From an uncultured Ignavibacterium sp. (GTDB taxonomy: Bacteria > Bacteroidota > Ignavibacteria > Ignavibacteriales > Ignavibacteriaceae), in NCBI GenBank assembly GCA_937934185.1, contig CALHAB010000210.1, forward strand, positions 1 to 35,186: a stretch of DNA of 35,186 bases, written 5' to 3'. Each line of letters opens with the position of its first letter. The stretch's first letter is position 1. Made by a program: the position numbers and the translations under genes. Below are positions 1,117-23,735 of this stretch, in pieces. The notes below the pieces were generated by a model. It was given only the letters and a program-made list of their open reading frames with translations. It did not search any database and was not told where the DNA came from.

Positions 1117-1146
1117 CTATTTAATTTTTAGCTATTTAATTTTTAG
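1117..1146. repeat. Perfect 15-bp tandem duplication at the STAND/pdxH junction
   Basis: The 15-mer ctatttaatttttag occurs twice back to back (1117-1131 and 1132-1146). On the minus strand the upstream copy encodes the last four residues (L-K-I-K) and TAG stop of the STAND protein. The second copy repeats the same bases, stop included, directly before the pdxH ATG. The whole intergenic spacer is therefore a copy of the gene's own 3' end. Confidence 0.9.
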
Positions 1147-4100
1147 GACTTGACCAGGTTCTATTCTTGGACTATCTAAATTATTGATTTTCATTAAATA
1201 TTCTTCGGTTAGATTAAATTTTTTAGCAATTTCAGATAAGGTTTGATTTGGTCTTACTGTGTAGAAAATTGGTTTATAATTAGTTTGGATATCGTTCGTA
1301 GAAGTATTTTTATTTTGTTGAGGTGTTACCTGCTCATCTTTTAATTCATAATTAGGTGGAACATTTTTGAGGTCAAATTTATCAAGATTATTTTGATAAT
1401 TTTCATTTTTTTGAATTTCTTCTACGACTTCTTTGCGGACTCTGAAATCAGAAACAAAGAATTGTTTCTTTTCTTCATCCGTTAGGGGACGTTTTGCAAA
1501 ATTCTCGGAATAATCAATAAGTTCTTGAAGGTTGGGGAATATACGATAAATTTCAACGGAGAAATGAGGTCCGGCCATTGCCATTCGTTTGGAATCAGGA
1601 CTAAAAGCGCAAGCATATCCTAATCCAGGGGAGCCTTTAAATACGGCCAATCTTAAAAAGGATTTTCCATCCCATAGTCTTGCCGATTTATCATCAGAAT
1701 TAGTTACAATACGTTTATCATCGGGGCTAAAAGAAGCAAAATACACATTATCCAAATGACCCTTTAGGTTCCCAACTTGCTGACCAGTCGATATATTCCA
1801 TACTTTTGCGGTGGAATCTTTACTTGAAGTTACGATTAGTTCACCACTGTGACTAAAAGCAACATGATTAACAATATCAGTATGACCTCTGAAAGTTTTA
1901 ATAAATTTACCTGTTTTTCCGTCCCATAATCTACAAGTAAAATCTTTAGATACTGTAGCGATGTAGCGGTCATCAGGGCTGAATGTGGCAAATTTGACAG
2001 CACCATGGTGCCCTACTAATGTATTTATCAATTTACCGGTTTTGACTTCCCAAAGTTTGGCGGTAGAATCTGCGGAAGTAGTAATTAGATATTCAGAATT
2101 ATTACTGAAAGCGGTGTAAAGCACATGACCGGTATGTCCTTCTAAGATATATTGAACGTTACCTGTGGTGGCATCCCAAATTCTAGCAGTTCTATCTATG
2201 GAAGAGGTTGCAATTTTTTTGCCATCTTTACTAATATCTACGGAGGTTAGAGTATTTTTATGTCCTCTGAAGACTGCAATCAGATTAAAACGTTGGAAAT
2301 CCCACAATCTTGCGGTGAAATCATCGGCTAGGGTAGCGAGGGTTTTACCGTCGTGAGAGAATTTAGCGGCTTCTACGATATGGTTGTGCCCTTGAAGTAC
2401 ACCTAACTGGCGTCCTGTTTCTATGTCCCATAGACGGGCAGTTTTATCCCAAGAAGTAGAAACTAAGCGTTTTCCATCAGGTGAGAACAGGTTATAAATC
2501 ATTTTATTTTTATGACCTTTTAAGGTCATGAGGGGTTCTTTGTTAGCAATTTTATTGATAGAGTAATATAAGGCGGCTTCGGCTTCTTCCACGTAAGGTC
2601 TATCGGGGTCATCTAATTTTTTGGGTAAAGCTTCTCTTGCTAGTAGGATACCAATATCAGGGCGGTTCTCATCCACTTGTTGCTCGGCTTGGGAAGCTAA
2701 GAATAAAGATTGCGTAATTAAAGCATTATTTCTTTGTTTTCTTGCAATTTCAGCTTGTTTACGAGCTTCTTCTTCTTTTTCTTGGGCTAATTTCGTTTTT
2801 TCTTCTGCTATTTTAGTTTGTCTTTTAGCTTCTTTTTCGTTTTCTTCTGCAATTTTACGTTGTTGTTCAGCAATTTTACGCTCATTTTCAGCAATTTTAC
2901 GTTGATTTTCAGCGATTTTTCGTTGCTCTTCAGCTTTAATTTTTTCGCCTTCTGCAATTTTTTTCTGGTTTTCAGCGATAATGGCTTGGGTTTCCGCTTT
3001 TAGTTTCTCAGTTTCTACAATCATTCTTTGGTATTCAGCTTCTTTCTCTTTCTTGATAGCTAAGTCTCGTTGAATTTCGGCGTATTCCGATTTTTCAATA
3101 GCAATTTCACGTTGGGCATCTGCTTCATATTTAGATTGTAGAGCCATCCATGCGGCAATTAAAGAAATTACTAATAACGTAGAAATTAAAGAGATAGCAA
3201 AAAGAACAAGTCTTCGGTTTCGGTCAATTTTTTGTTTAGAGAGAAAAAGAAACTCTTCACAATCTTCATGGTAGATGGCGGCTTGTTCCAAAGGCTCCAT
3301 GATAGGGTGGATTTCTTCGGGGGACATGTATCTTAATATCCAGGCAGGATTAGGTTCTGCTTTTTCCCACCAAGTATTAAAATAGGTATAAAGGCCTGAG
3401 TTCAACAAATATTTGGGATCTTTTTCACTTTCAAGCCATTGATTTACTTGTACTTTAAAATCACGGAAGATAGAAACCGATTTATATTCTTCCTCTGCCC
3501 ATTCTACCAACAAATCCCAGTTTCTAATTAACGATTCGTGGGTTATGTCTAGTACAGTATCTGGGGAAAGTTCTTTGGAGGATTCGTCATCCGTGATAAA
3601 GGGCTGAATAAAAGAATTTCCTGTTTCGCGAAATATATTGATAACCTTGACAAATTTTTCCATTGAGATGTCTTGAGAGCCGTAAATAGCATAGATTTCC
3701 ATAAGAGTCATACGGTTTCTTACGGCACGGTTATCATCAATTTTCGTTAAGCAGACAAAAGTCGTTTTGATGATTTTTTGGGCATCTTCTTTGGAGATAG
3801 TATCTTGGTAACGAGTATTATAAATTTCGTGAGCGGTTTCGTAGAGTTCATTAGCATGTTTACTTAATACGTTTCTTAGGCGGGGTTTTTCAAAGAGGTA
3901 TTTTTTTTCTTCGGGTAGATTTTTAAGGAAAAGTTCAAATTCAGGCTGTATAGAAGCAGGAAGCTTATTTAAGGCTATCCCACCAACTTTGGCGTAATGA
4001 ATAAGGTCTATTTCTGCTTTGTTTTTGTTTGCTTCTTTCCACATTTGATAAAGTGCGTGTTGTAAGACTGGTAGCTGATCGGTTCCATCGCCTAGGTCAT

Positions 4101-5856
4101 TTAAAATTCTTTGTGTAAGACGCAGGGATATTTTATCACCATTCAAGATGGCAGGGGATTGTATAACTTCTTGAATTTCTTCACGTTTTAATCTGGGTAC
4201 AAAATAAGTAGAATTACCAATAAGTTCGGCAAAACCTCTGAAAGCAACGCATTGCCCAATATAATCGGAGCGCATCGTAAAGACGACATAAATAGGAAGT
4301 TGCTCATCACGAGCTAATTTGATGGTTTCCTGTAAGACATTTATCGTAATTTGCGAGACGGGCGAGGCTACGCCATCACGATAGTTTTCGGAGTTGGTAA
4401 AAAACTCTTCGAATTGGTCAACGAGAATTAGGAGGTTAGAAGCTTTTCTTTTCATGGCTCTACGAGTTTCTTCGTCTGCGTCAGCCCATTCAAGGGAGGT
4501 CATATCGCAATAAGCATCCGATTTTTTGTAAATATCCACAAGCGCGGAGAAACCGTAACCTAATTGGAGTTCAACATCATCAACATTTTTTAGGCGTAGG
4601 CCTTGCGCAAGGGCGGCGGCTAGATTACGAAGAGGTGTTCTTTCGGGCTTGAAGTCAACGACCGTCCATTTAGTAAATAAACCTTTTAAAAAGCCTGCTT
4701 TGGCGTTGGGTATAACTCCTGCATAAATTAATGAAGATTTTCCATCACCAGATGCCCCCGTAACCATTACGTATTTATTGGCTTCAAGCATTTGAATGAC
4801 GGCATCTATGTGCTTGTCTCTTCCCTTAAAATAAATTGACTCGTTTTCATTAAACGGTCTTAAACCTGTATAAGGCGAGAAAGTTCCTTCTACAATTTTA
4901 CCGCTTACACTGACTTTGTTATAGACTTCTATTATTTTAGGATAAACCTCGTCTTTTTTAACTACGGATAGCAGTAATTGTGGTGCTTTAAAGCGAATAA
5001 AACGATTTCTTCTTGGTTCATCTTCACCAATTAAAAGAATAGGAGTGTTATTGGAGGCACCACCAGAAAGTTTCCATACCTGTTTCACGAAAGCCAAAGC
5101 CCAATCTGAGCTTTCTTTAAAAAAGACAATCGTCATTTTGGCTTTACGAAGCATTTTTATAGCTTCTTTTCGGTAGTCTATATCCTGCTCAGGAACAACC
5201 GTTAAAGTAGATATTTTATAGTTTTCTCCTAGTTTTTCTACAATTTCATAACAGTCCCCTGCATCTTGAACATTAGAAATAAATGAAATTTCGTATTCTC
5301 TCTTGATTTGAACTTCTTCCTGACTGACGGTCTCAAGGACATTTCTTAAATCATCTATAAACTGGGCAGAGCTATTCGTGTTCGTGAAAATAACTTCATC
5401 AGAAAGCGAATTTAAGATATGGTCTATTAAAAGGGCTTGTTGTTCTTGGACTACTACATCTTTTAATGGATAATGCCAAACAAAACGTTTAAATTTCCCA
5501 GAGGTTCTTCTAGACATTATACCTGCATTTTCATACTGGTATTTGGCGAGAGAAGTATAGGGATCCCCTTTGATGGTTCTGCCAAATTGAGCACCTAACA
5601 AATGTATAGAACACTCTGAAATTTCTAATGCTTTTGCTACATGTTCTACAAACTCTGCTTCAATCATTGGTTCAGATACCTTGGGATATGCCTCAAAACC
5701 TGCTTTCTCAAGCATAAACTGAAGTTGAGTCCTTACAGTCTCAAGCTCTGGAGTCACCCAAGCTAAAAAAACAGAATGTTTTTTCTCTACTTGAACTGCC
5801 TGAATATCCGCAGATGTAAGTGCATCATTGATTTGAAATTTTGGCCTACTATCCAT
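1132..5856 (-). CDS. Transmembrane STAND ATPase with TIR/DUF4062-like N-terminus, WD40 propeller and C-terminal LysM
   Basis: A 1574-residue multidomain protein. Residues 27-100 resemble a DUF4062/TIR-like fold (SVFLAWVTPE, then SIHLLGAQFG); 187-312 look like a second TIR-like Rossmann domain (ISFISN, then MTIVFFKESSDWA). An nSTAND-type ATPase follows: entry motif P-Y-T-G-L-R-P-F (328-335), F-x-G-R-D (343-347), Walker A GASGDGKSS (367-375), Walker B LLILVDQFEEFF (475-486), TMRSDY sensor-like motif (527-532). One TM helix lies at about 882-904, preceded by Arg-Arg, predicting a cytoplasmic N terminus. A charged heptad coiled coil covers about 907-1045, eight WD40-like blades (each with a GH and W-D pair, the last degenerate) cover 1109-1440, and a LysM domain covers 1532-1574. 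STAND proteins are ligand-triggered switches in signalling or immunity. Here the sensor half is predicted to be periplasmic and able to bind peptidoglycan. The ligand and effector output are unknown. First gene of the pdxH operon. Confidence 0.88.
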   Translation of the reverse strand: MDSRPKFQINDALTSADIQAVQVEKKHSVFLAWVTPELETVRTQLQFMLEKAGFEAYPKVSEPMIEAEFVEHVAKALEISECSIHLLGAQFGRTIKGDPYTSLAKYQYENAGIMSRRTSGKFKRFVWHYPLKDVVVQEQQALLIDHILNSLSDEVIFTNTNSSAQFIDDLRNVLETVSQEEVQIKREYEISFISNVQDAGDCYEIVEKLGENYKISTLTVVPEQDIDYRKEAIKMLRKAKMTIVFFKESSDWALAFVKQVWKLSGGASNNTPILLIGEDEPRRNRFIRFKAPQLLLSVVKKDEVYPKIIEVYNKVSVSGKIVEGTFSPYTGLRPFNENESIYFKGRDKHIDAVIQMLEANKYVMVTGASGDGKSSLIYAGVIPNAKAGFLKGLFTKWTVVDFKPERTPLRNLAAALAQGLRLKNVDDVELQLGYGFSALVDIYKKSDAYCDMTSLEWADADEETRRAMKRKASNLLILVDQFEEFFTNSENYRDGVASPVSQITINVLQETIKLARDEQLPIYVVFTMRSDYIGQCVAFRGFAELIGNSTYFVPRLKREEIQEVIQSPAILNGDKISLRLTQRILNDLGDGTDQLPVLQHALYQMWKEANKNKAEIDLIHYAKVGGIALNKLPASIQPEFELFLKNLPEEKKYLFEKPRLRNVLSKHANELYETAHEIYNTRYQDTISKEDAQKIIKTTFVCLTKIDDNRAVRNRMTLMEIYAIYGSQDISMEKFVKVINIFRETGNSFIQPFITDDESSKELSPDTVLDITHESLIRNWDLLVEWAEEEYKSVSIFRDFKVQVNQWLESEKDPKYLLNSGLYTYFNTWWEKAEPNPAWILRYMSPEEIHPIMEPLEQAAIYHEDCEEFLFLSKQKIDRNRRLVLFAISLISTLLVISLIAAWMALQSKYEADAQREIAIEKSEYAEIQRDLAIKKEKEAEYQRMIVETEKLKAETQAIIAENQKKIAEGEKIKAEEQRKIAENQRKIAENERKIAEQQRKIAEENEKEAKRQTKIAEEKTKLAQEKEEEARKQAEIARKQRNNALITQSLFLASQAEQQVDENRPDIGILLAREALPKKLDDPDRPYVEEAEAALYYSINKIANKEPLMTLKGHKNKMIYNLFSPDGKRLVSTSWDKTARLWDIETGRQLGVLQGHNHIVEAAKFSHDGKTLATLADDFTARLWDFQRFNLIAVFRGHKNTLTSVDISKDGKKIATSSIDRTARIWDATTGNVQYILEGHTGHVLYTAFSNNSEYLITTSADSTAKLWEVKTGKLINTLVGHHGAVKFATFSPDDRYIATVSKDFTCRLWDGKTGKFIKTFRGHTDIVNHVAFSHSGELIVTSSKDSTAKVWNISTGQQVGNLKGHLDNVYFASFSPDDKRIVTNSDDKSARLWDGKSFLRLAVFKGSPGLGYACAFSPDSKRMAMAGPHFSVEIYRIFPNLQELIDYSENFAKRPLTDEEKKQFFVSDFRVRKEVVEEIQKNENYQNNLDKFDLKNVPPNYELKDEQVTPQQNKNTSTNDIQTNYKPIFYTVRPNQTLSEIAKKFNLTEEYLMKINNLDSPRIEPGQVLKIK
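2827..2973 (-). repeat. Degenerate 21-nt repeats encoding a KIAE heptad coiled coil
   Basis: Inside the STAND gene, about seven imperfect 21-nt units encode the heptads around residues 962-1010 (K-I-A-E-N-Q-R, K-I-A-E-N-E-R, K-I-A-E-Q-Q-R and variants). They form a highly charged stalk between the TM helix and the WD40 propeller. Repeats of this kind can expand or contract by slippage, so stalk length may vary between strains. Confidence 0.75.
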
Positions 5857-6250: not shown

Positions 6251-7012
6251 ATGAACTTTCTTAAAGAATTTCGACCATTCTGTAAATTACTTTCGGATAA
6301 AAGTGCTGAAATAATCCGACAATATTTTAGAACAACAATTATTGTTGAACAAAAATCCGATTACTCGCCTGTTACTATTGCTGATAAAAAATCCGAAGAA
6401 ATGATGCGGGAAATGATTCATAAAGAATTTCCAGACCACGGAATAATTGGGGAAGAATTTGGCGAAGAAAATCCAGATGCAGATTTTGTCTGGGTGCTCG
6501 ATCCAATTGATGGTACTAAAAGTTTTATTTGTGGTGCTTTGTCATTCGGGACTTTAATAGCACTACTCTATAAGAATGAACCTGTTATTGGTGTAATCAA
6601 TCATCCTGTCCTGAATGAGTTTTTAATCGGAGATAATAAAATCAGCTTGCTTAATGACGCTAAAGTTAAGGTAAGTGAAAAAAATAATATTTCAGAAGCT
6701 GTAATGTTAACAACTGATCACTTAAATATTAAAAAATATCAGAGTGCAGAAAAATTTGATAAACTGATTAATTCAGTCTGGATCTACAGAAACTGGGGAG
6801 ATTGTTATGGTTACTATTTACTTGCAACCGGATTTGCAGATATAATGATTGATCCGATTATGTCAGTTTGGGATACAATGGCTTTGATTCCTATCGTCAA
6901 AGGTGCCGGTGGAATTATAACAGATTATAACGGAAATGATGCATCAAAAGGAAATAGTGTTATTGCAGCTAATCCATATCTTCATTCAAAAGTACTTGAG
7001 ATTCTTAACTGA
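6251..7012 (+). CDS. hisN: Histidinol-phosphatase, inositol-monophosphatase family (HisN type)
   Basis: A 253-residue soluble enzyme of the Mg-dependent inositol monophosphatase superfamily. The metal ligands are visible: G-E-E (E68, E69), the hallmark D-P-I-D-G-T (D84, D87), and W-D (D208) in the S-V-W-D-T-M-A-L motif. The segment F-I-C-G-A after DPIDGT, GTLIAL, the Y-G-Y-Y-L-L-A-T-G-F-A-D-I-M-I-D-P run and the L-I-P-I-V-K-G-A-G-G motif resemble HisN histidinol-phosphatases more than generic IMPases or CysQ. HisN removes phosphate from L-histidinol phosphate, the penultimate part of histidine synthesis. No other his genes are nearby, which is common for HisN. It ends convergently with the next gene, overlapping it by 8 nt. 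The superfamily is certain; the exact substrate is probable. Alternatives are inositol phosphates or PAP. Confidence 0.85.
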   Translation: MNFLKEFRPFCKLLSDKSAEIIRQYFRTTIIVEQKSDYSPVTIADKKSEEMMREMIHKEFPDHGIIGEEFGEENPDADFVWVLDPIDGTKSFICGALSFGTLIALLYKNEPVIGVINHPVLNEFLIGDNKISLLNDAKVKVSEKNNISEAVMLTTDHLNIKKYQSAEKFDKLINSVWIYRNWGDCYGYYLLATGFADIMIDPIMSVWDTMALIPIVKGAGGIITDYNGNDASKGNSVIAANPYLHSKVLEILN

Positions 7013-7754
7013 AAAGATAAATCAGAAGACAAATTATTGATGTTATAAGTACAATCGGTTTTTCTCTCTTCTTCAGGAACACAAAAACGGTGATACCTAT
7101 CCAAAGTATCGTAATAGTCAATAAACTGAGTGGGAAAAGATTTTGTATAGGTGGAATTGATTTATTGATATATTCAAATTTATAAGAAAGATATAACGGA
7201 TTTATCATCATCAAAAATGTAAGCAGCACAATTGATGTAATTACTAAAAAGTTTTTTGTTTTCCTGTTAGTTTTAAATTGCTCCAGTCCAGACCTTATTA
7301 GTAGTATTAATCCTGAATAGAGAAATAACAAGTACAACCAGTTAAGCATCTTTGGAATTTTACCAAAGAATGTGAATTTAGTCTCACCTTCCTGAGGAAT
7401 ACGATAAACTTTATCTTTGCCTCTCAGTATTAAAGAATAACTGAAATTACTTCCAACACTTTTCTTACTTATTTCTGCAGATAAAATTTTATCATTCTTT
7501 TTTAGTTCGATTGTATAATTATTCACTTTATCCGAATTTATAATTACTTGACCTTCCAAATTTTCATAATCCGTTCTGACTAATAATTTATAACTATCAC
7601 CGTATTCAATTTTATCAAGCTTATAAGATATTTTCTTTCCTTCTACAGAGAATGTACCCGTAACAGGATAGTACTCTCCAAATACAGATTTGAAGTAAGA
7701 TAAAAGAAACACAACAATGATTGAACTAAGCCATAGTATAATTGATTCTTTCAT
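7005..7754 (-). CDS. Uncharacterised membrane protein with N-terminal TM, periplasmic domain and four C-terminal TM helices
   Basis: No family recognised. From the ATG at 7754 the product is 249 residues. A hydrophobic helix (about 5-22) is followed by a beta-rich soluble region (about 25-125, with short K/D/S-rich strands), then four hydrophobic helices (about 132-152, 168-188, 206-228, 232-248). This suggests a periplasmic sensing or binding domain anchored by a helical bundle. The open frame could start eight codons earlier at a TTG (7776-7778), but that codon has no ribosome binding site and the ATG gives a normal N terminus. It follows the terminator at 7783-7810, so it is probably separate from the upstream operon. 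Its last 8 nt overlap the convergent hisN gene. Confidence 0.65.
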   Translation of the reverse strand: MKESIILWLSSIIVVFLLSYFKSVFGEYYPVTGTFSVEGKKISYKLDKIEYGDSYKLLVRTDYENLEGQVIINSDKVNNYTIELKKNDKILSAEISKKSVGSNFSYSLILRGKDKVYRIPQEGETKFTFFGKIPKMLNWLYLLFLYSGLILLIRSGLEQFKTNRKTKNFLVITSIVLLTFLMMINPLYLSYKFEYINKSIPPIQNLFPLSLLTITILWIGITVFVFLKKREKPIVLITSIICLLIYLFS

Positions 7755-7782
7755 AACCTTAATTTTTTTTTCAAGCAAACTT

Positions 7783-7810
7783 AAATAAAAAACCCCGTTA
7801 AGAAACGGGG
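7783..7810 (-). terminator. Rho-independent terminator of the GldLM-like/barrel operon
   Basis: The stem CCCCGTT (7793-7799) pairs with AACGGGG (7804-7810) around an AAGA loop. On the minus strand it is followed by a T-rich run (complement of 7783-7792). It lies 28 nt past the stop of the barrel protein. Confidence 0.9.
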
Positions 7811-7837
7811 CAAAATAAAGTTACTTGTTACAAAATA

Positions 7838-9007
7838 TCAGAATGATGTTCCTAACTTAAATCTCAGGTTGACAAATATTTTTGTAAAGCCAAAGCTTCC
7901 GGAATCAGTGCGTGATATGCTGGCCGCCGGACCAATTGCAAATGCGCTGAATCCCCAACCTTCCATTATTTTTTGAACGAGCAATGTAATGTTATATTGA
8001 GGTTGTCTGTATTTGGTTGAAGGCATTCCATCAAATGCCAAATCGAATGTACTGCCGGCAAGTGACATTTCCCTGAATCCAAATCCGAAATGCCATTCAT
8101 CAAGATGCTGGGCAACATAAATCTTTCCTCTCGTAGAACCAAGCACAGAGACCGGATATCTGAATTCCCAATTGAGAAATGACTGCTGATTATGAATCAC
8201 TCTTGCCTGATACTTTACACTTCCATCATCATTGAATACAATTGTTCCTTCGGATTCTTTTATGTAGCTGTTATATTTTGCCTGACCAATTGTAGTGGTT
8301 GCTTTCAGATAACCGAATTCAAAAAAGTTTCCGAAAGGAATAGTATAGGTAATATGAAATCCTTCACTGAAAATCAAATTATTATGATTTTGTTCTTTGA
8401 TAGGTTCAATCATTGCATCAACATGACTGAATATACCTGCTTTCACTCCCAGTATGTGGAAGTTTGCTTCAAAGAAGTTTGTTTCGAGAGGGCCGGAGTA
8501 TGGTGTTCCTATTCCGAAAGATAAACCGACATCCTGCTTGAGTGAAACCCCCAATCTTTCGCCGCCTTGAAGCTGGAGAAATGGATTTATGTAACCAAGT
8601 GTGGGTGAAATTTGTGTCTTGGTCGGGGGTTGAAGTACTTTCCCGAATCTAATTTTTTCAACCACTCTGGTAAACACACTTGCATAATGAATATCCTCTT
8701 CAAGATTTATCTTGAATGGATAAGTGATAATTCTTGCCCGCAGCTCGGGAGAGAGAGCAAGCATTGGATATAAAGCGCCCTTAATTGAAATAGTCTGATT
8801 ATTAGCATCTCTCAGGTCAACTATAATTTCTGCTTTCGGATCAGGCGGATCAATGAACAGAGCTTCCTGAATTTGAATAAACAAACTATCATCAAGCGGC
8901 TCCATCTGATAATACCTGATTTGTTCTTCTTCCTGAGCAAATGACAAACCCGGAAACATTGAAAAGAACATTATCAATACAGCAGAAATCAGAACAGTTT
9001 TTTTCAT
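7838..9007 (-). CDS. Predicted secreted outer-membrane beta-barrel protein, unknown function
   Basis: A 389-residue protein with a clear signal peptide (MKK, hydrophobic core, cleavage likely after LSFA near residue 24). The N-terminal 60-120 residues form an acidic soluble region. The rest alternates hydrophobic and polar residues with many aromatics and ends in a strand terminating in Phe (R-F-K-L-G-T-S-F), as outer-membrane barrels do. No family was recognised; it is not obviously PorP/SprF, TolC or OmpA. It follows the GldM-like gene by 15 nt and is the last gene before a strong terminator, so it is probably the outer-membrane part of the same complex. Being a barrel is an inference from sequence texture only. 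Confidence 0.7.
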   Translation of the reverse strand: MKKTVLISAVLIMFFSMFPGLSFAQEEEQIRYYQMEPLDDSLFIQIQEALFIDPPDPKAEIIVDLRDANNQTISIKGALYPMLALSPELRARIITYPFKINLEEDIHYASVFTRVVEKIRFGKVLQPPTKTQISPTLGYINPFLQLQGGERLGVSLKQDVGLSFGIGTPYSGPLETNFFEANFHILGVKAGIFSHVDAMIEPIKEQNHNNLIFSEGFHITYTIPFGNFFEFGYLKATTTIGQAKYNSYIKESEGTIVFNDDGSVKYQARVIHNQQSFLNWEFRYPVSVLGSTRGKIYVAQHLDEWHFGFGFREMSLAGSTFDLAFDGMPSTKYRQPQYNITLLVQKIMEGWGFSAFAIGPAASISRTDSGSFGFTKIFVNLRFKLGTSF

Positions 9008-9022
9008 ATAAGTTATACCTGA

Positions 9023-9973
9023 TTATTTTGAAAAATCTGTAAAGAAAAATGAATCTCCAACCTGAACACGGTCTTTAGTTCTATCATCGATTGCGGTGAA
9101 GAAAAAGTTTACTTTATATCTTCCGTCCGATTCACGAAGATTTCCGTTTTTATCCAACCAATCATCAAATGCTGAAGATGTTGAAGCAATTTTTAGAGAT
9201 ACATTATAAATTAAATTTCCATTACTGTCTTTTACCGGGCCAGTAACACTGATTGGACCGTTCCAGGTAATTTTCAACTGATCTGGTCTGTTATCAATTA
9301 CGGTTACTTTGAATACTGTTATTCTTTGTAATTCCTGAACATAAATATCCCGGGCGTTCATCTTGGTTGTTACTTTTTCAATTTTTATTTCCGGCGGTTT
9401 ATTTGGAACAACTTTTATTCTGTCTTCCTGTGATCCGAATTTGACAACAACTTCAGTCTGGTCTGTAAGATCAAATTTCTTTTCCTGACCAGCTGGAATA
9501 ACTACTATTGGCTTACTTCGGTCACGAGGATCATAAATCTCAACAGGAACACTTCCGGTATTTGATGCTACATTCCAGGTATGTTGAATAAATGTTTGTT
9601 TGTTGGAAATAGGCATTGGCATTAAAGTTTGTTCTTCAACTACAGGTTTTTCTTCTTCTTTAGGAGGAGGTAATTCCTGAATTTTGGTTTGAACTTCCTG
9701 AAGTTTTTGACTTAACGAAGCGAGTTTTTTCTTCAGCTCTTCATTTTCAATCGGGAGATTTTGGTCAATCTTTATATCGAACTTTAAACCAAGTGCATAT
9801 AAAGAATCGATAAGTGTTACCAGAGAATCCCGAACTTTTTTATCAACTGTTTCCTCTTCAAGAGCAACACGACGCAAATCGAGATCAGCGCCTTTTAATG
9901 CAAGCACTGTAATCACGAATATGTAAAGCACCTGGTAAATAACAAATTTACTGTCTCTGTTTTTATTAATCAT
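9023..9973 (-). CDS. GldM-like periplasmic protein (single TM, helical region, Ig-like C-terminus)
   Basis: A 316-residue protein with a short basic N terminus (M-I-N-K-N-R-D-S-K) and one TM helix at about 11-27 (Y-I-F-V-I-T-V-L-A-L-K). A helical, partly coiled-coil region follows (about 35-105), then a P/E-rich linker (105-120) and two beta-rich segments (about 128-195 and 200-316) that look Ig-like. This matches GldM/PorM of type IX secretion and gliding motors in topology and roughly in the first helix (Y-x-V-x-x-x-x-L-A-L-N), but it is shorter than typical GldM (about 500 residues). It follows the four-TM partner by 10 nt. An ExbD/TolR/MotB-like or purely structural role is also possible. 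The homology is a hypothesis, not established here. Confidence 0.55.
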   Translation of the reverse strand: MINKNRDSKFVIYQVLYIFVITVLALKGADLDLRRVALEEETVDKKVRDSLVTLIDSLYALGLKFDIKIDQNLPIENEELKKKLASLSQKLQEVQTKIQELPPPKEEEKPVVEEQTLMPMPISNKQTFIQHTWNVASNTGSVPVEIYDPRDRSKPIVVIPAGQEKKFDLTDQTEVVVKFGSQEDRIKVVPNKPPEIKIEKVTTKMNARDIYVQELQRITVFKVTVIDNRPDQLKITWNGPISVTGPVKDSNGNLIYNVSLKIASTSSAFDDWLDKNGNLRESDGRYKVNFFFTAIDDRTKDRVQVGDSFFFTDFSK

Positions 9974-9983
9974 TTTTGTGCTC

Positions 9984-10973
9984 TTATTTCTTGACTACAA
10001 TTGATTCGAGATATTTTAATCCTGTTAATGTCTTTTCATCTGAAAGAGAATTACTTGCCTGTTGAATTGAATTTGCAAGTGTACTTAACTCCTGAATTTT
10101 CTGACTGCTTACGGTGTCAATCTGATTTATCTTTTCTGCCAGCATTGATATAGAGGCAAAATTCTTATGCATTATTTCACTGAGTTTTGCTGAATGTTCA
10201 ATGAGAAGTTTGTATTTCTCAAGGTCAGCAATCGATAAGTTTGTTGCGCCAGCGTTATTTCCACCGGCAAACTGATTCAATTGTTTCATCAGATTTTTAG
10301 AGTTCTCAATCTGAATTCTCGAAAAATATTTCTCACGGATGTCTTCAACATGATTTACAACATTCTGAAACTCAACACCAAGTTGATCCAAAACAGGTTC
10401 GAACAATTTTCCAATAGCAAGAACAATCAATGCCTTTACTTCAAAAGGAACCGAAAGACCAAGAAAAATTTCCTCACCAAGTTTTATACTGATAAGAAGT
10501 ATTGCAGCGCCAATCAATGGAAGAGCTGTTGATATACTATCAATAACACTTGTGTATGAATTAATGATTCTGTCTATTGTAGCGCTTGCCGGAGTTCTGA
10601 TAATTTCCAATTTCAACTTGTTGTAAGCAAGGAATGCCATAAAAACAAAAAATGCATAAGTTAAAACCGGAAGCCACCAGAAACTATATGGAGAAATACT
10701 CTCCTGTGCAGGCTGCCAGGTTGGGAATAATGCTCTTGCAATATCAACTGTAACATTTCCAAGAATGGGTACTGTTGATAAATCAAGAAAGAATGAAAGT
10801 ATAAGTGCTGCAAATGATATCATTGCTGGTCTAAATACAACAGAAAACTGAATCTTTCTAACAGCGGACTTTGTGTATTCTTCAAGCTCTCTTTCCAGCT
10901 CGTTGTTTGTAATGTCAGGATTTAAATAATCCCTTGTGCTGTCTTTCGGTGGTTTAATAGTTTGGGTTACCAT
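9984..10973 (-). CDS. Four-TM inner-membrane protein with cytoplasmic helical tail (GldL-like / ExbB-like candidate)
   Basis: A 329-residue protein. After a charged 45-residue N terminus come predicted TM helices at about 47-66, 97-117, 146-165 and 170-190. The third contains S-T-A-L-P-L-I-G-A-A-I-L-L, loosely like the channel helix of ExbB/TolQ/MotA proteins, followed by an acidic L-G-E-E. Residues 200-329 are soluble and mostly helical, with heptad-like spacing, as in the cytoplasmic tail of GldL. The start has a good ribosome site (GAGGAG about 5 nt before the ATG at 10973). It is the first gene of a three-gene operon with the GldM-like and barrel genes. Family membership is inferred from architecture and neighbours, not from a recognised domain. 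Confidence 0.55.
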   Translation of the reverse strand: MVTQTIKPPKDSTRDYLNPDITNNELERELEEYTKSAVRKIQFSVVFRPAMISFAALILSFFLDLSTVPILGNVTVDIARALFPTWQPAQESISPYSFWWLPVLTYAFFVFMAFLAYNKLKLEIIRTPASATIDRIINSYTSVIDSISTALPLIGAAILLISIKLGEEIFLGLSVPFEVKALIVLAIGKLFEPVLDQLGVEFQNVVNHVEDIREKYFSRIQIENSKNLMKQLNQFAGGNNAGATNLSIADLEKYKLLIEHSAKLSEIMHKNFASISMLAEKINQIDTVSSQKIQELSTLANSIQQASNSLSDEKTLTGLKYLESIVVKK

Positions 10974-14219: not shown

Positions 14220-15257
14220 TTAAATGCCCGTTCTTAAAAATCTTGGCTCTTCAAGCGTAAGAATAATCGATATTCGATGTGAATCCGGTAGTCTGTCAAT
14301 CTCAGATTCACTGAATCTTGCAAATGAATAATCAATATTAAGTTTAGGAAGTTTTACTCCGGCACCTACAGTGAATTGCTTTACATCATTATAACCGCCG
14401 CGCACATATATCAGATTTTTGAAAGTGTACTCAAGTCCGGCATGCATATCGAAACTAACAGGACCAATATTAAACTGAGAGGCAAATCTTCTGTTTTCAA
14501 ACCGAACATCGAAATCAAGTGCAGGCATGATATATCCGCCAAGAAATTCTGTTAGCTTGTAAGCCCCGCCGATTTTAAGTGTTGGCGATACGAGTTCATT
14601 TCTTCCTGTACTCCATGCAACAAGTGTAGTCGTTGCATCCTGAAGATTTGCACCGAGATAAAGATTTTCAAATGGTGTATAAAAAGCTCCGACATCAAAG
14701 CCGATTCCTGTTGCGCTGTATTCTGCCAAAGTTCTTCTGATTACTTTTGCATTAACACCCCAGTAAAAATTCGATTCCTGTCTTTTTGCAAATGTCAAAT
14801 AAAATGCCCAGTCCTGATTACTGAATTCTGTAATTCTGCTGTAGTCAAGTCTGTCATCTCTTATATCAATTATTCCATCACCATTTGCATCATAAAGAGC
14901 ATTACGGGTATCCGGAATTCCATCAACTCCCAATCTCATTATGCTTAATCCAAAGCTCATATCAGTGCTGAAAGGAATAGCAACTGAACCATAATCGTAA
15001 TTAACAAGGTTACCAAATTGTTCTGAATGCATCAACGCAATCTGAGGATAATTGAGATTGGCTAATCCTGCTGGATTGTAATAACCCGATGTAACATCAT
15101 TTGCAACTGCAACGAATGCTCCACCCATACCTAAAGCTCTGCCTCCAACTCCCAGCGCCATAAATTCGCCGGCATATTTGGCGAATACAGTTTGAGCATT
15201 TATTGTAACAATAGTGGAGAAAGCCATTGTTAAAGCTAGAATTATTTTTGAGCGCAT
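14220..15257 (-). CDS. PorV/PorQ family outer-membrane protein
   Basis: A 345-residue exported beta-barrel protein with a signal peptide (about 1-21, ending I-N-A-Q). The N-terminal signature after it, E-F-M-A-L-G-V-G-G-R-A-L-G-M-G-G-A-F-V-A, then D-V-T-S-G-Y-Y-N-P-A-G-L-A, is the hallmark of the PorV/PorQ group of FadL-like barrels. In Bacteroidota, PorV and PorQ act in type IX secretion, shuttling or attaching cargo at the outer membrane. Many FCB genomes carry several paralogs of uncertain role. An Asp-rich D-A-N-G-D-G-I-I-D-I-R-D loop (about 122-133) looks like a Ca-binding dockerin/EF-like insert. The ribosome site GGAG precedes the ATG by 5 nt. Monocistronic, with its own terminator. 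Confidence 0.82.
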   Translation of the reverse strand: MRSKIILALTMAFSTIVTINAQTVFAKYAGEFMALGVGGRALGMGGAFVAVANDVTSGYYNPAGLANLNYPQIALMHSEQFGNLVNYDYGSVAIPFSTDMSFGLSIMRLGVDGIPDTRNALYDANGDGIIDIRDDRLDYSRITEFSNQDWAFYLTFAKRQESNFYWGVNAKVIRRTLAEYSATGIGFDVGAFYTPFENLYLGANLQDATTTLVAWSTGRNELVSPTLKIGGAYKLTEFLGGYIMPALDFDVRFENRRFASQFNIGPVSFDMHAGLEYTFKNLIYVRGGYNDVKQFTVGAGVKLPKLNIDYSFARFSESEIDRLPDSHRISIILTLEEPRFLRTGI

Positions 15258-18063: not shown

Positions 18064-18411
18064 CTAAGCAAGAAAATGCGAATCCTCGTCGTACTTCCCT
18101 TTTAATTCATCAATATGAGTTTTTTCCCAAAGATTCACTTTATCAAAATAAGCAGCTCTGCCAATAATGTGAGCCGCAACAGGAGCAGTAAGTAATAAAA
18201 AAACAATTATTGAAACAGCTCTGGCGGCAATTCCTATATCTTCCCAGTAAAAAGCCGTCCCGATTAAAACCAAACCTATACCAAGGGTTGAAGCTTTAGT
18301 TGTTGCAGACATTCTGGTAAATAGATCAGGCATCTTTAGAATACCAATTGCAGACAACAGGATAAATAAAGAACCAAGCAATAATAAAACACCGCTTATG
18401 ATTTCAATCAT
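18064..18411 (-). CDS. mrpG: Mrp/Mnh antiporter subunit G
   Basis: A 115-residue protein with three TM helices (about 3-25, 38-58, 64-84) and a hydrophilic C-terminal tail. The signature G-x-x-x-x-L-x-S-A-I-G-I-L-K-M-P-D-L-F-T-R-M-S-A-T-T-K-A-S-T-L-G is diagnostic of MrpG (PhaG/MnhG). It is the last gene of the Mrp operon, overlapping mrpF by 4 nt. The Mrp complex exchanges Na+ (or Li+/K+) for protons across the inner membrane; MrpG is a small subunit of the hetero-oligomer. Confidence 0.95.
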   Translation of the reverse strand: MIEIISGVLLLLGSLFILLSAIGILKMPDLFTRMSATTKASTLGIGLVLIGTAFYWEDIGIAARAVSIIVFLLLTAPVAAHIIGRAAYFDKVNLWEKTHIDELKGKYDEDSHFLA

Positions 18412-18680
18412 TTTCTTGTACTCCTTTCAAGATATGATGCAAAAGCTACTGTGCCGAGAAAAGTCAGCAATGCCAAAATAACGCCCACATCAAGAAATGT
18501 TGTGGTCATACTTTGGATTGAGTAAACTGCAATGAATGCAATTGCATTTGCTGATAAAAGATCCAATGCTACGATTCTATCTTCTATGGAAGGACCGATT
18601 ACAAGCCGGATAAAAATAATCAGAATTGAAAGTCCTATAAGGGAAACAGAAATGCTCGCCGATAATTCAATAAAACTCAT
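18408..18680 (-). CDS. mrpF: Mrp/Mnh antiporter subunit F
   Basis: A 90-residue protein with three TM helices. The motif R-L-V-I-G-P-S-I-E-D-R-I-V-A-L-D-L-L-S-A-N (about 26-46) is the MrpF/PhaF signature, including the conserved D-R-I-V-A-L-D. It overlaps mrpE and mrpG by 4 nt on either side, so it is translationally coupled. It is a small structural subunit of the cation/proton antiporter. Nothing unusual. Confidence 0.95.
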   Translation of the reverse strand: MSFIELSASISVSLIGLSILIIFIRLVIGPSIEDRIVALDLLSANAIAFIAVYSIQSMTTTFLDVGVILALLTFLGTVAFASYLERSTRK

Positions 18681-19150
18681 CGTAATACCTCCAGCAGTCT
18701 TTTTTCAAGTCCGTCTTTAATTTCTCTTCGGAAACTATCGGCATCTTTCACATACAAAGCATGTACATACAGAGTTTTCCTGTCGCTTGATACATCTAAA
18801 CTTAATGTCCCAGGTGTTAAAGTCAGTAGATTTGCGAGTAACACAATTTCCAGATCAGTGCGGGCATCAAGCGGCACCGCAATTATTCCGGGCTTCATAT
18901 AATCTTTGGGTGTGATAATATCAAAAGCTACTTTCAGATTTGCTACTATCAGTTCTTTGATGAAATATAAAATGAAACTAATAGTGAGAGGAATTTTTTT
19001 GAAATAAGTTGAACCTCCCAAAGCTGACTTCGAAATCCAAAGGATTATGTATCCGACTATCAATCCTTCAACAAATGTTTCAAATTCAACATTCCCGATC
19101 AGAAGAACCCACGCAATTGCCAATAATATGTTAAGTAAAAGTTGATTCAT
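18677..19150 (-). CDS. mrpE: Mrp/Mnh antiporter subunit E
   Basis: A 157-residue protein with N-terminal TM helices (about 4-40 and 57-77) and a cytoplasmic C-terminal domain. F-V-E-G-L-I-V-G-Y near the start and the L-L-A-N-L-L-T-L-T-P-G-T-L-S-L-D-V motif (about 103-119) identify MrpE/PhaE. Its start overlaps the last base of the mrpD stop (19150) and its end overlaps mrpF by 4 nt. It is required for assembly or activity of the complex in characterised bacteria. Confidence 0.95.
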   Translation of the reverse strand: MNQLLLNILLAIAWVLLIGNVEFETFVEGLIVGYIILWISKSALGGSTYFKKIPLTISFILYFIKELIVANLKVAFDIITPKDYMKPGIIAVPLDARTDLEIVLLANLLTLTPGTLSLDVSSDRKTLYVHALYVKDADSFRREIKDGLEKRLLEVLR

Positions 19151-20682
19151 TATTTCAGTCCCAAAACTGAATTAATATAATTTGAGGAATCAAGCAGTTG
19201 CATTGCTGATTCATTAGCGATATTAAAAAAGGGCTCTGCATAAAATCCAATCACTATTGTAATAAAGGCTAAAATTATAATTGGTAGAATCATCATGAAT
19301 TTTTTGCCTGATGTAAGGGATTTATAAGTAATGTCTGTAACATTCTCACTGTTTTGGGGATCATCTTTCCAGAAAACCTCGTTCCAGATTTTAGTCATTG
19401 AAAACAGAGTAAGTAAACCAACCAATAAGGCAATGCCAACTACCAGAAACTCTTTCAGTTCAAGTCCTGCTTTGATCAAAACAAACTTTGCCCAAAATCC
19501 TGACAACGGAGGAATACCTGCAAGAGATAAAGCAGGTATCAGAAAAAGTAAACCCAGCATAGGATAAAACTTATAAACACCACCCAATTCTTTAAGATTA
19601 TAAGATCCTTTTAATTTTTTTACATATCCACTGATGAAAAACAGATTAGTCTTAACAATTATATGATGAATTATGTAGAAGATTGCCCCTGCAATTGCAA
19701 GAGGCGAGAACAATGCAACACCCAGAATCATATAACCAATCTGACTGATAATATGAAATGATAATATTTTTCTGAAATTATTTTGCGCCGCAGCTCCAAG
19801 TACACCTGTAAGCATAGTTAAAGCAGCAGAAACAAGAAGTATATCTTTTATAAAATCAGAGTTGTAAATAAAGACCGTTGTAAAAAATCTGATGATTGCA
19901 TACACACCAACCTTTGTAAGCAATCCTGCAAATATAGCTGAAACAGCAGCCGGCGGTGTGTGATAGGATGCGGGTAACCAAAAGAATAAAGGAAATATTG
20001 CGGCTTTAACTCCAAATGCTATCAGAAATAGGACGGCAACAACATTTACCAATTCCTGATTTTCAATAAAAGGAATTTTTCTTGATACATCTGCCATATT
20101 CAAAGTTCCGGCAAGCCCGTATAAAATTCCTACTGCGGCGAGGAAAATTGCTGACGACAACAAATTTAATGTAACATATTTGATCGCCCCCTCAAGCTGT
20201 GCTCTTCTTCCTCCAAGAGATAGCAGAACGAAAGACGAGATAAGCATTACCTCAAACCAGACATAAAGATTAAAAATATCTCCTGTAAGGAATGCCCCAT
20301 TGATTCCCATAAGAAGAAATTGCAGCAATGGATAATAAAGATATCTTTCTCTGCTTTCATCTATTGAACCGATTGAGAACAGTGCGGTTGTAAGACCAAT
20401 TACAGCAGTTATGATGACCATAATTGAAGAAAGCAGATCAGCAACTATGCTGATACCAAATGGAGCCTGCCATCCACCAACCTGAAGCGATATTATTCCA
20501 GAGTTATTTACTTCGACAAATATTATTAGTGAGCATATCAGTGAAAATAAAGTTGCCAGAAGATTTAAAGCTCTTTGAATCTTTACAGACTTCCAGAAAA
20601 ACAGCATCATAACTGAAAAAGTAAGCGGCAATATTATAGGAAGAATAATTATCAGCATTGTAATACTTTCAATCAATTTCAT
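19150..20682 (-). CDS. mrpD: Mrp/Mnh antiporter subunit D (complex I NuoM/N-like)
   Basis: A 510-residue protein with about 14 TM helices. It belongs to the proton-conducting family shared with NuoL/M/N. Visible marks are [15 protein letters not shown] (with the conserved TM5 Glu), the [12 protein letters not shown] motif (TM7 Lys), [21 protein letters not shown] (TM8 Lys), and [12 protein letters not shown]. All key charged residues are present. It overlaps mrpC by 14 nt and mrpE by 1 nt. MrpD with MrpA carries the ion-translocating part of the complex. Confidence 0.97.
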
Positions 20683-21022
20683 CTGTTGATTTCATTTTGT
20701 CAAGATCATCTGTTCCCACTGTCTGATAAGCCCTTTTGAACAAAACAATTGCAAATGCCTGAACACCGAATCCAATTACAATTGCTGTAAGTATCAATGC
20801 CTGCGGAAGCGGGTCTGCATATGGTTCTGTAAGAATATTAGTCCCTGATGGTACAAATGGAGGAGCAGCTTTTGTCAGTCTGCCAATTGTAAATATTAAA
20901 AGGTTAGCAGCATGTCCCAGAAAAATCAGTCCAAGAATAACTTTGACAAAACTTCTTCTTAAAATCATATATACGCCAGCAGCATACAGCAATCCGACAA
21001 GAACAGGAAGAAATAGTTCCAT
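20669..21022 (-). CDS. mrpC: Mrp/Mnh antiporter subunit C (NuoK-like)
   Basis: A 117-residue protein with three TM helices, related to NuoK. Motifs are G[25 protein letters not shown] with the conserved H-A-x-N-L, and [17 protein letters not shown] (about 70-86), standard for MrpC. It shares one base with mrpB (21022) and overlaps mrpD by 14 nt. It has a short acidic C-terminal tail. Unremarkable MrpC. Confidence 0.96.
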
Positions 21023-21438
21023 TATTTTTCCTCCTCAGCTAAAGAAAAAATTATTTTAAGAGCAATTCCAAGTACGACAAAATAAACTCCCAGATCAAAT
21101 AATAAAGGCGTTCCGATTTTACCAATTACAGGTATATTGGTATCTAACCAAAAACCTTTCATAAAAGTCTGACCAGAAACGATAGAAGGGACTACACTAA
21201 TAAGTGCAAATGTCAATCCGATAGAAATAATTTTAATTGGCTCAGCTTTAAATAATTTTTCAGCCTCATAAACTCCGTTTGCAATGAAGTATAATGCATA
21301 TGCAGCTGCAGCTACAAGCCCGCCAACAAATCCTCCGCCAGGTTCATTATGTCCGCGAAGCAGAAGAAAGAATGAAAATATTAACAATAGTGGCAGCAGG
21401 TACTTAGAAGCTGTGGATAAAATTATTGAAAACATCAT
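21022..21438 (-). CDS. mrpB: Mrp/Mnh antiporter subunit B
   Basis: A 138-residue protein with four TM helices. The [18 protein letters not shown] motif (about 29-46) is the MnhB domain signature. The [11 protein letters not shown] motif near the C terminus is also typical. MrpB is a separate gene here, so this is the seven-gene Mrp layout rather than the six-gene form with MrpA' fusion. It overlaps mrpA by 4 nt. Confidence 0.96.
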
Positions 21439-23735
21439 TCACCTTTATCGTCTAGTTTTAATTTCAGCAATGCGTATACACCGATTGCTGCTATTGCAAG
21501 AACTGTAATTTCGCCAAGTGTATCAATAGCTCTGAAATCTACGAGTATCACATTAACTATGTTTCTTCCCTTGCCTTCAGGCAATGATTTTTCTGCAAAG
21601 TAAGTCTTTAAATCAGATTGCATTGAAAGAGATGTTACATATAAAACTACTGTGCTCATAAAAATTCCTACTGCAGCTGAAATAATAACATCGCGTAATT
21701 TTACAATTACATTGGAGAACTGAAGATATTTGGGTAGTTTATACAATACCAATACAAAGAGGATCACTGTTAAAGTTTCAATGGCAAATGTAGTTAATGC
21801 AAGATCAGGGGCACTGTAAATTATAAAAATAATTCCCATAGTAAAACCAACAACACCGATAGCAACAATTGATTTAAGTCGTGAATCGGATGTGATTACA
21901 ACAAAAGTAGCACCTACCATCATTGACAGAATTGCAATTTCGTAAAAAGTTATATCAGGTATGAAGTTTATATTCAGTGTAGTAATGGCCTTAATAAGTG
22001 AAAGAGATGCGAGACCAATTGCAGTAATTAAAATGAAAATTATATAATTTCTTAAATAACCATTCTGAAGAATTCTCGTTTGTAATTTTGCAAACCACAT
22101 CAGAAAAATAAGCAGATATTCATACCATTCAGAGGGCTTAAGAATTTTAATCATCCGGACATTCTGAATAGTGCTGAAAAATTTATTCCGGAGAACATAA
22201 AAAAGAATACCCAAACCAAGAGTAATAAAACTTAAAAGCAAAACAAGATTGAACCCATGCCAAAGTTTAATCTTGATACCAAGTTCTTCCGTTAAAATGC
22301 TGATTGTTGATTGTTCAAGAAGTTTTCCAATTATTGCATTAGGAAATATTCCCATCAACAGACCTAAAATTGCCAGTATTGCAGGACCAAACAACATTTT
22401 TATATGAGCTTCGTGTGGAGCAACCGGAGTTGAGGTCAGTTTACCAAAAAATGGTTTTAGTCCAACAAGAATAGTCACCATCACAATCAAGGCATTTGAA
22501 ATAACAGCAATAATAATCAGAAAAATTCCCCAGTATTCAATTTCAAGAATTGCAGAATAAACAGTTTCTTTTCCAATAAATCCAATCAGAGGAATTATCC
22601 CCATCATTGATGAGGATGCAAGTAAAGCAGTTGCCATTGTAACAGGCATTATTTTTTTCAAGCCGCCAAGATTGTGAACATCACGGGTGCCTGTTGAGTG
22701 ATCAAGTGTGCCGGCTACTAAAAACAAAGTTCCTTTATAAAGTGAATGTGCAACCAGATAAATAAAAAATGCTTTAATGGCAAGTTGCGAACCAATACCG
22801 ATGAGTAATGTTAATGTACCAAGAACACTTAAGGTTGAATATGCAAGAAGCCTTTTCAAATCAGTTTGTTTAATTGCCAGAGCTGCAGCAATCAACATAG
22901 TAATTGTTCCGAATATTAAAATAGTGCCCTGCCAAAGTTCAGTTCCGCCAAGAGCGTGATTTAATCTTGCGATAAGATAAATTCCGGCTTTAACCATAGT
23001 TGCCGAATGTAAGTATGCGCTCACCGGAGTTGGTGCTTCCATTGCATTTGGTAGCCAGAAATGAAACGGAAATTGGGCAGACTTAGTAAATGCTCCAAGC
23101 AAAATCAATATAACAGCAGATGAATAAAATCCTGATTTGATTATTTCAGAGTGCTTATCATAAAGAGATGAAATTTCAAAACTGCCTGTAATCAGATATA
23201 AAAATATAAATCCGGCAAGCAAAGCGAGACCACCACTGCCTGTTACCAATAATGCCTGAAGAGCTGATTTCCTCGATGATTCTTTGTGATGGTTGAAACC
23301 AATAAGCATAAAAGAACTTATACTTGTCAATTCCCAGAAAACAAACAGAGTAATCATATTGTCGGAGATTACCAATCCAAGCATTGATGTCATAAAAATT
23401 CCGATGTAAACAAAAAATCTGTCGGTATGCTCGTAGTCTTTCATATAAGCACCTGCATAAAGAAATACAACAACACCAATCAATGTGATAATTAAAACAA
23501 AAGTCAGACTCAAACCATCCAGAATAAATGTTAAGTTAATTCCCAGTGATGGGATCCATTCATAATATTCTTTTATGATTTCTCCGTTTGCTACCTGTTG
23601 ATATCTTGAAATGAAACTTAAAAACATGAATAATGGAAATGAGGCGGCAATCCAACCAAAATAGTTTTTGAAAGGTTTGTAAATAAAAGCGGCTGAAAAA
23701 GATGCAATAAATCCAATGATTAACAAATAAAGCAA
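21435..23735 (-). CDS. mrpA: Mrp/Mnh antiporter subunit A (NuoL-like plus MbhD/MbhE-like C-terminus)
   Basis: A 766-residue protein with about 20 TM helices. The N-terminal 480 residues are NuoL-like ([46 protein letters not shown]). The C-terminal part carries the MbhD-like segment ([16 protein letters not shown]) and the MbhE-like segment ([18 protein letters not shown]). So it is a full-length MrpA. It starts at TTG (23735), supported by CAGGAAA 7 nt upstream; no ATG is near. It heads a seven-gene operon. A palindrome at 23762-23785 lies just upstream. The complex expels Na+ in exchange for H+. Confidence 0.97.

Follow-up and report, generated by a model that had tools for sequence, protein, structure and literature searches.

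An L-M-B operon of Ignavibacteria encodes a candidate trans-envelope machine with motor-like architecture and its own barrel-like protein

Three adjacent genes in a draft genome of the class Ignavibacteria, named L, M and B here, are predicted to encode a channel-like inner-membrane protein, a bitopic protein with a shaft-like periplasmic part and a barrel-like protein. We estimate a probability of roughly 0.5 that their products assemble into a trans-envelope machine operating in the manner of the 5:2 ion-driven motors and belonging to an undescribed protein family. In such a machine, several L subunits in the inner membrane would encircle the transmembrane (TM) helices of dimeric M, and ions, most likely protons, would pass invariant charged residues in TM3 and TM4 of L (D145, E178, K180 and K189). 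Ion passage would alter the packing of the L ring around the M helices, and the periplasmic domains of M would relay this change to B, an outer-membrane protein, at its N-terminal domain. The genes, their conservation, the predicted folds and a domain fusion were observed as described below, and we infer the stoichiometry, ion flow, movement and L-M-B contacts of the proposed motor.

The window, which is the whole stretch of DNA analysed (35,186 nucleotides), is contig C210 of genome G000, a draft of 2.84 Mb in 226 contigs that is 86% complete. L (9984..10973; 329 aa), M (9023..9973; 316 aa) and B (7838..9007; 389 aa) are open reading frames on the same (minus) strand with intergenic gaps of 10 and 15 bp. 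Just past B, at the end of the operon, lies a strong intrinsic-terminator-like hairpin (7792..7811, minus strand) with an 8-bp stem containing five G-C pairs, followed by the T-run TTTTTATTTA. Three terminator-like sites were found versus 1.7 ± 1.5 in shuffles, a number so near the shuffle level that the position of the hairpin weighs more than the count. A preliminary description of this DNA had read the region as a three-gene operon with one terminator and without adjoining gldK or gldN; the short gaps and the hairpin directly after B agree with this, and the operon consists of L, M and B only.

The neighbours of the operon encode an inositol-monophosphatase-family protein, an alpha-amylase and a TM protein of 257 aa. 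The last of these (7005-7778, minus strand) belongs to no known family, adjoins B and is kept beside B in many f1 relatives; in the distant loci that were inspected it was not recognised. Elsewhere in the window are a gene for a 1574-aa protein with a STAND NTPase and WD40 repeats (1132-5856, minus strand), the C-terminus of which weakly matches murein transglycosylase D, and genes for an Mrp/Mnh-type cation/proton antiporter (18064-23735, minus strand). A PorV/PorQ-family gene (14220-15257, minus strand; NF033709, 129 bits, above the cut-off) lies approximately 3.2 kb from L, and ORFs of PorV-like length, a likeness by length alone, occur near L in several f1 relatives. In family f37, LysM-domain proteins are encoded near the operon (L172:10728-13255, L180:10456-11250 and L177:3612-4451).

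Pfam and NCBIfam searches gave no match to L, M or B near a curated cut-off, and a literature search found no paper describing these genes; judged by sequence, the three proteins appear to match no described family. M directly follows L in 63 of the 65 related loci that have room for it, and B lies within 150 bp of M in 52 of the 60 loci with more room and within 2 kb in 57 of them (both sets include a few genomes twice). This gene order recurs across many genomes at identities down to ∼25–30%, which argues that the arrangement is not a product of chance. With a profile built from diverse L sequences, 55 of the 294 class genomes sampled, about a fifth, were found to carry the family. In a sample of the phylum it was present in three of 148 genomes, all from the family to which the window belongs, and it was not found in the sampled remainder of the phylum outside the class. 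Since the distribution is patchy even within families f1 and f2, L-M-B is best described as an accessory system. One genome (G044) carries two copies of the operon, at loci L033 and L034, and an L that is 95% identical is present in a metagenome-assembled genome named Ignavibacterium sp. HOT.MB2.1.

Hydropathy analysis of L indicated four hydrophobic segments at approximately residues 45–63, 98–116, 143–161 and 169–187. The AF2 model (mean pLDDT 73) features helices at residues 43–62, 100–126, 130–165, 167–237, 248–283 and 290–327, where helix 167–237 continues from the membrane into a helical tail. The charged loops suggest an N-in/C-in orientation, and the model points to an inner-membrane four-TM protein that may serve as a channel-like subunit with a long cytoplasmic helical tail. 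TM3 (residues 145–165; 10479..10541, minus strand; mean entropy 0.59 bit) carries the motif DSIxTALPLIGAAILLISIKLG, in which D145 is conserved in 71 of 72 sequences and P152, L153, G155, A156 and A157 in all 72. TM4 (residues 168–195; 10389..10472, minus strand; 0.65 bit) features the motif SVPFEIKALIVLAIGKLFEPV, with E178 and K180 conserved in 72/72 sequences, K189 in 71/72 and E192 in 58/72. D145, E178, K180 and K189 all sit inside the membrane or at its edge. TM1 and TM2 are more variable (1.59 and 1.63 bits), as is the predominantly helical tail (residues 196–329; 9987..10388, minus strand; 2.22 bits), most of which is missing from the L proteins of only ∼230 aa at loci L184, L185 and L187.

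The single TM helix of M (residues 10–28; 9890..9946, minus strand; FVIYQVLYIFVITVLALKG) is conserved on all faces, with a mean entropy of 0.46 bit (residues 9–28) compared to 1.70 bits for the rest of M. Y13 and K27 are present in all 57 sequences and Q14 in 56, and no Asp or Glu is found among the main residues of columns 10–28 across these 57 sequences. Conservation across the module peaks at the sites that a channel/axle motor would need, namely TM3 and TM4 of L and the TM helix of M. Known motors exhibit the same contrast in weaker form (0.73 bit for the GldM TM helix and 0.98 bit for that of ExbD, from alignments of differing depth). Beyond the membrane, residues 45–100 of M are modelled as helices at low confidence and are read as a coiled coil, followed by tandem Ig/cadherin-like domains at residues ∼116–190 and 191–314 (9032..9628, minus strand; AF2 pLDDT ∼90). 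The second of these aligns with a protocadherin domain at a VIA-align Z of 8.5 (rmsd 2.7 across 95 residues). In the model, M is a bitopic protein whose periplasmic part could act as a shaft or transducer. The preliminary description had proposed a four-TM protein with a Glu-bearing membrane helix and a cytoplasmic helical tail, next to a single-TM protein with helical and then Ig-like periplasmic parts, and hydropathy, the AF2 models, the invariance of E178 and the VIA-align result all accord with this.

B features a hydrophobic, signal-like N-terminus by hydropathy, then a conserved N-terminal domain (residues ∼26–125; 8633..8932, minus strand) and a strand-rich remainder. Residues 126–389 contain 16 amphipathic 10-mers versus 10.5 ± 2.3 in column shuffles, where eight of 500 shuffles scored as high. 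B is therefore a probable secreted protein with a periplasmic-type N-terminal domain and an outer-membrane barrel; the signal-like N-terminus and the excess of amphipathic strands support the barrel nature claimed earlier, short of establishing it. Our guess is that B helps to export or remodel some component of the cell surface.

Several loci depart from the standard architecture of M. At L181 (7938-9398), M is split into a 188-aa protein that holds the TM helix and the first domain, and a secreted 280-aa protein in which a domain like the N-terminus of B (E 1e-7, detected with the profile of that domain) is fused to the last domain of M (E 8e-24). M is likewise split at L185 (5360-6778), where a similar separate, secreted protein bears its last domain, while M is short (125–135 aa) at L184, L186 and L187. 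The separate last domain and the short M proteins indicate that a rigid covalent drive shaft is dispensable, and the L181 fusion suggests that the tip of M and the N-terminal domain of B act together.

Additional M genes were found far from L in families f37 and f41. At the 12 orphan-M loci fetched, some of which end at contig ends, neither L nor B lies beside M. The orphan-M genomes checked (G200, G278, G282 and G310) have L at one operon, in a search that scored at most six first-look candidates per genome and could have missed a second divergent L. In the TM region the orphan proteins retain 18–27 of 27 residues, and most of their periplasmic parts fall to 37–56% identity, with some pairs closer (up to 96%). 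This pattern would fit several transducers or shafts served by one L channel. Among these paralogues (L204-L215), those at L204, L205 and L211 in f41 have as neighbours a gene for a response regulator and one resembling histidine kinases; Pfam annotation of the neighbours was run on L204 and L211.

Gene order, predicted folds and conservation support what was put forward originally, an architecture that spans the envelope, resembles a motor and includes a barrel-like protein of its own. The main rival to an ion-driven motor is a passive trans-envelope scaffold or tether, in which an L oligomer in the inner membrane and an M-B bridge to the outer membrane would secure the envelope or keep a complex in place, with no ions flowing. 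This is a rather unlikely reading. The lack of an acidic residue in the M TM helix, the occurrence of the last periplasmic domain of M as a separate polypeptide in some loci and the missing sequence link to ion-driven motors would all suit it, but conservation on all faces of the M helix and across TM3 and TM4 of L, with invariant charges, exceeds what a plain anchor would need, and the tail and periplasmic parts vary while the membrane core stays fixed.

A kinship with GldL and GldM, as proposed in the preliminary description, was not supported at the sequence level. Profiles for GldL (TIGR03513) and GldM (TIGR03517/PF12080) matched none of L, M and B, nor did they find a canonical GldL or GldM elsewhere in the draft genome. 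This absence would be weak from one incomplete genome and is made firmer by the class sample: the membrane part of GldL was found in none of 294 class genomes with TIGR03513 or of 197 with a wider model, and GldM in none of the class genomes listed within the phylum sample. The wider model, which includes the short GldL of family f23, retrieved only coiled-coil tails in the class (model positions 94–264), so a divergent GldL was rejected there. Family f23, from the same phylum, encodes a divergent GldL-GldM pair plus a third gene (L193:6871-9679, L194:5862-8668 and L195:4605-7676), in which the GldM-like protein is short (380–386 aa) and the GldL_N match (E 9.8e-5) is below the cut-off. Using hhalign in shallow and deeper runs, L-GldL gave probabilities of 2–6 and M-GldM of 21–30, and for the TM parts neither pair was clearly above controls (100 column shuffles preserving hydrophobic classes). 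GldL was not among the best Foldseek or VIA rows for L, nor GldM among those for M, an absence compatible with either relationship. GldL has two TM helices and the periplasmic part of GldM has four domains, D1–D4 (PMC8986121, PMC9389320). With no profile match, four TM helices versus two and two Ig-like domains versus four, L and M were not accepted as members of the GldL and GldM families.

The translocon protein SprA of the type IX secretion system (T9SS) was found in 292 of the same 294 genomes, and on this distribution L-M-B, present in 55, was rejected as a motor serving the T9SS throughout the class. A narrower proposal is that L and M are a highly divergent GldL/GldM pair that drives the T9SS of these particular Ignavibacteria, with B replacing the GldK/GldN ring. 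The identical gene order, the roughly similar architecture, the near-universal SprA without detected canonical GldL/GldM and the PorV-family gene near L would be in keeping with it. M versus GldM was also the best of the TM comparisons, although six of 100 shuffles scored as high. TM2 of GldL contains a strictly conserved Glu, E49 (PMC8986121), and an M helix without Asp, as in GldM, alongside an invariant Glu in L would match this arrangement; E178 and E192 of L TM4 gave no significant alignment to E49. Set against the difference in distribution, the differing numbers of TM helices and predicted Ig-like domains and the lack of significance in profile comparisons, a divergent GldL/GldM is quite improbable.

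We place lowest, as also improbable, the reading that L-M-B is a distant branch of the MotA/TolQ/ExbB superfamily and functions like Ton or Tol. The topology and fold ranking of L favour such a branch: chains of ExbB, TolQ and PomA made up most of the top PDB rows from Foldseek (best E 0.024, probability 0.75; none significant alone), and VIA-align gave Z scores of 7.5–7.9 against TolQ, ExbB and ZorA, a range that helical bundles reach by chance. By eye, PFEIKALIVLAIG in TM4 of L resembles the ExbB TM3 motif PGIAEALIATAIG, and this serves as a lead only. However, hhalign revealed no significant link between L or M and MotA/ExbB or ExbD, with 67/100 and 52/100 shuffles at least as good. Since the shuffles were not exceeded, by-eye likenesses to GldL (GAAxxL...GxxxE) and ExbB (PxxxKALIxxAIG) were set aside as evidence of membership. 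The PF01618 profile did not match L, M had no Pfam match, and the four PF01618 (MotA/TolQ/ExbB) matches in G000 lie elsewhere and do not include L. PDB sequence searches with the L and M profiles returned only coiled-coil-type or other weak matches, and none for B. MotB, ExbD and TolR carry an essential Asp on the partner TM helix (PMC8986121, PMC9389320), whereas M has Q14 at the axle position, and together with the missing profile match this led us to reject L as a superfamily member. L-M was consequently filed under neither GldL/GldM nor MotA/ExbB, as profile links were not significant and no single fold match of L was significant. PADLOC found no match to ZorA or ZorB (L gave weak matches to other families, M and B none), and a Zorya assignment was also rejected.

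If L-M-B is an ion-driven motor, we would tentatively place it in a separate class, without detectable sequence kinship to MotAB, ExbBD, TolQR, ZorAB or GldLM. One channel would drive a dedicated barrel through an Ig-domain shaft, in some lineages through several interchangeable shafts, and the ion-carrying charges would lie on the channel subunit only. To our knowledge, few kinds of ion-driven trans-envelope motor have been described, and a family that sequence comparison does not connect to them, and that has a barrel-like protein of its own, would extend this set. Its axle helix without Asp would test which motor features are essential, and the module bears on what powers the near-universal T9SS translocon in Ignavibacteria, where GldL and GldM were undetected.

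In L-M-B as in GldL-GldM (PorL-PorM), a channel-like inner-membrane protein whose cytoplasmic tail is helical precedes a bitopic protein that extends a shaft into the periplasm, the M-type TM helix has no Asp, and the L-type protein carries an invariant Glu. L-M-B differs in that L has four TM helices rather than two, M combines a coiled coil with two Ig-like domains rather than four domains, the pair is followed by B rather than GldN, profiles do not match, and the module is patchy where SprA is near-universal. With MotA/TolQ/ExbB and MotB/TolR/ExbD, which include the best-ranked fold neighbours of L, it shares the four-TM N-in/C-in topology of MotA, a TM4 that extends far into the cytoplasm and a conservation maximum at the putative pore helices and partner TM helix. 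In contrast, L has a short cytoplasmic TM2-TM3 loop and a long C-terminal tail, and M features Ig-like domains in place of peptidoglycan-binding or TolR-like periplasmic domains and Gln in place of the axle Asp. ZorA-ZorB is comparable in its channel with a long cytoplasmic tail (L aligns with ZorA across 133 residues at a VIA-align Z of 7.6 and rmsd of 3.7), while M lacks the axle Asp, the operon includes a barrel-like gene and no defence genes were recognised alongside. Finally, AglR-AglQ/AglS of Myxococcus has more than one bitopic partner per channel protein (PMC9389320); L-M has no recognisable MotA/MotB homology, unlike this system, but resembles it in the several bitopic partners for one channel that the orphan Ms suggest.
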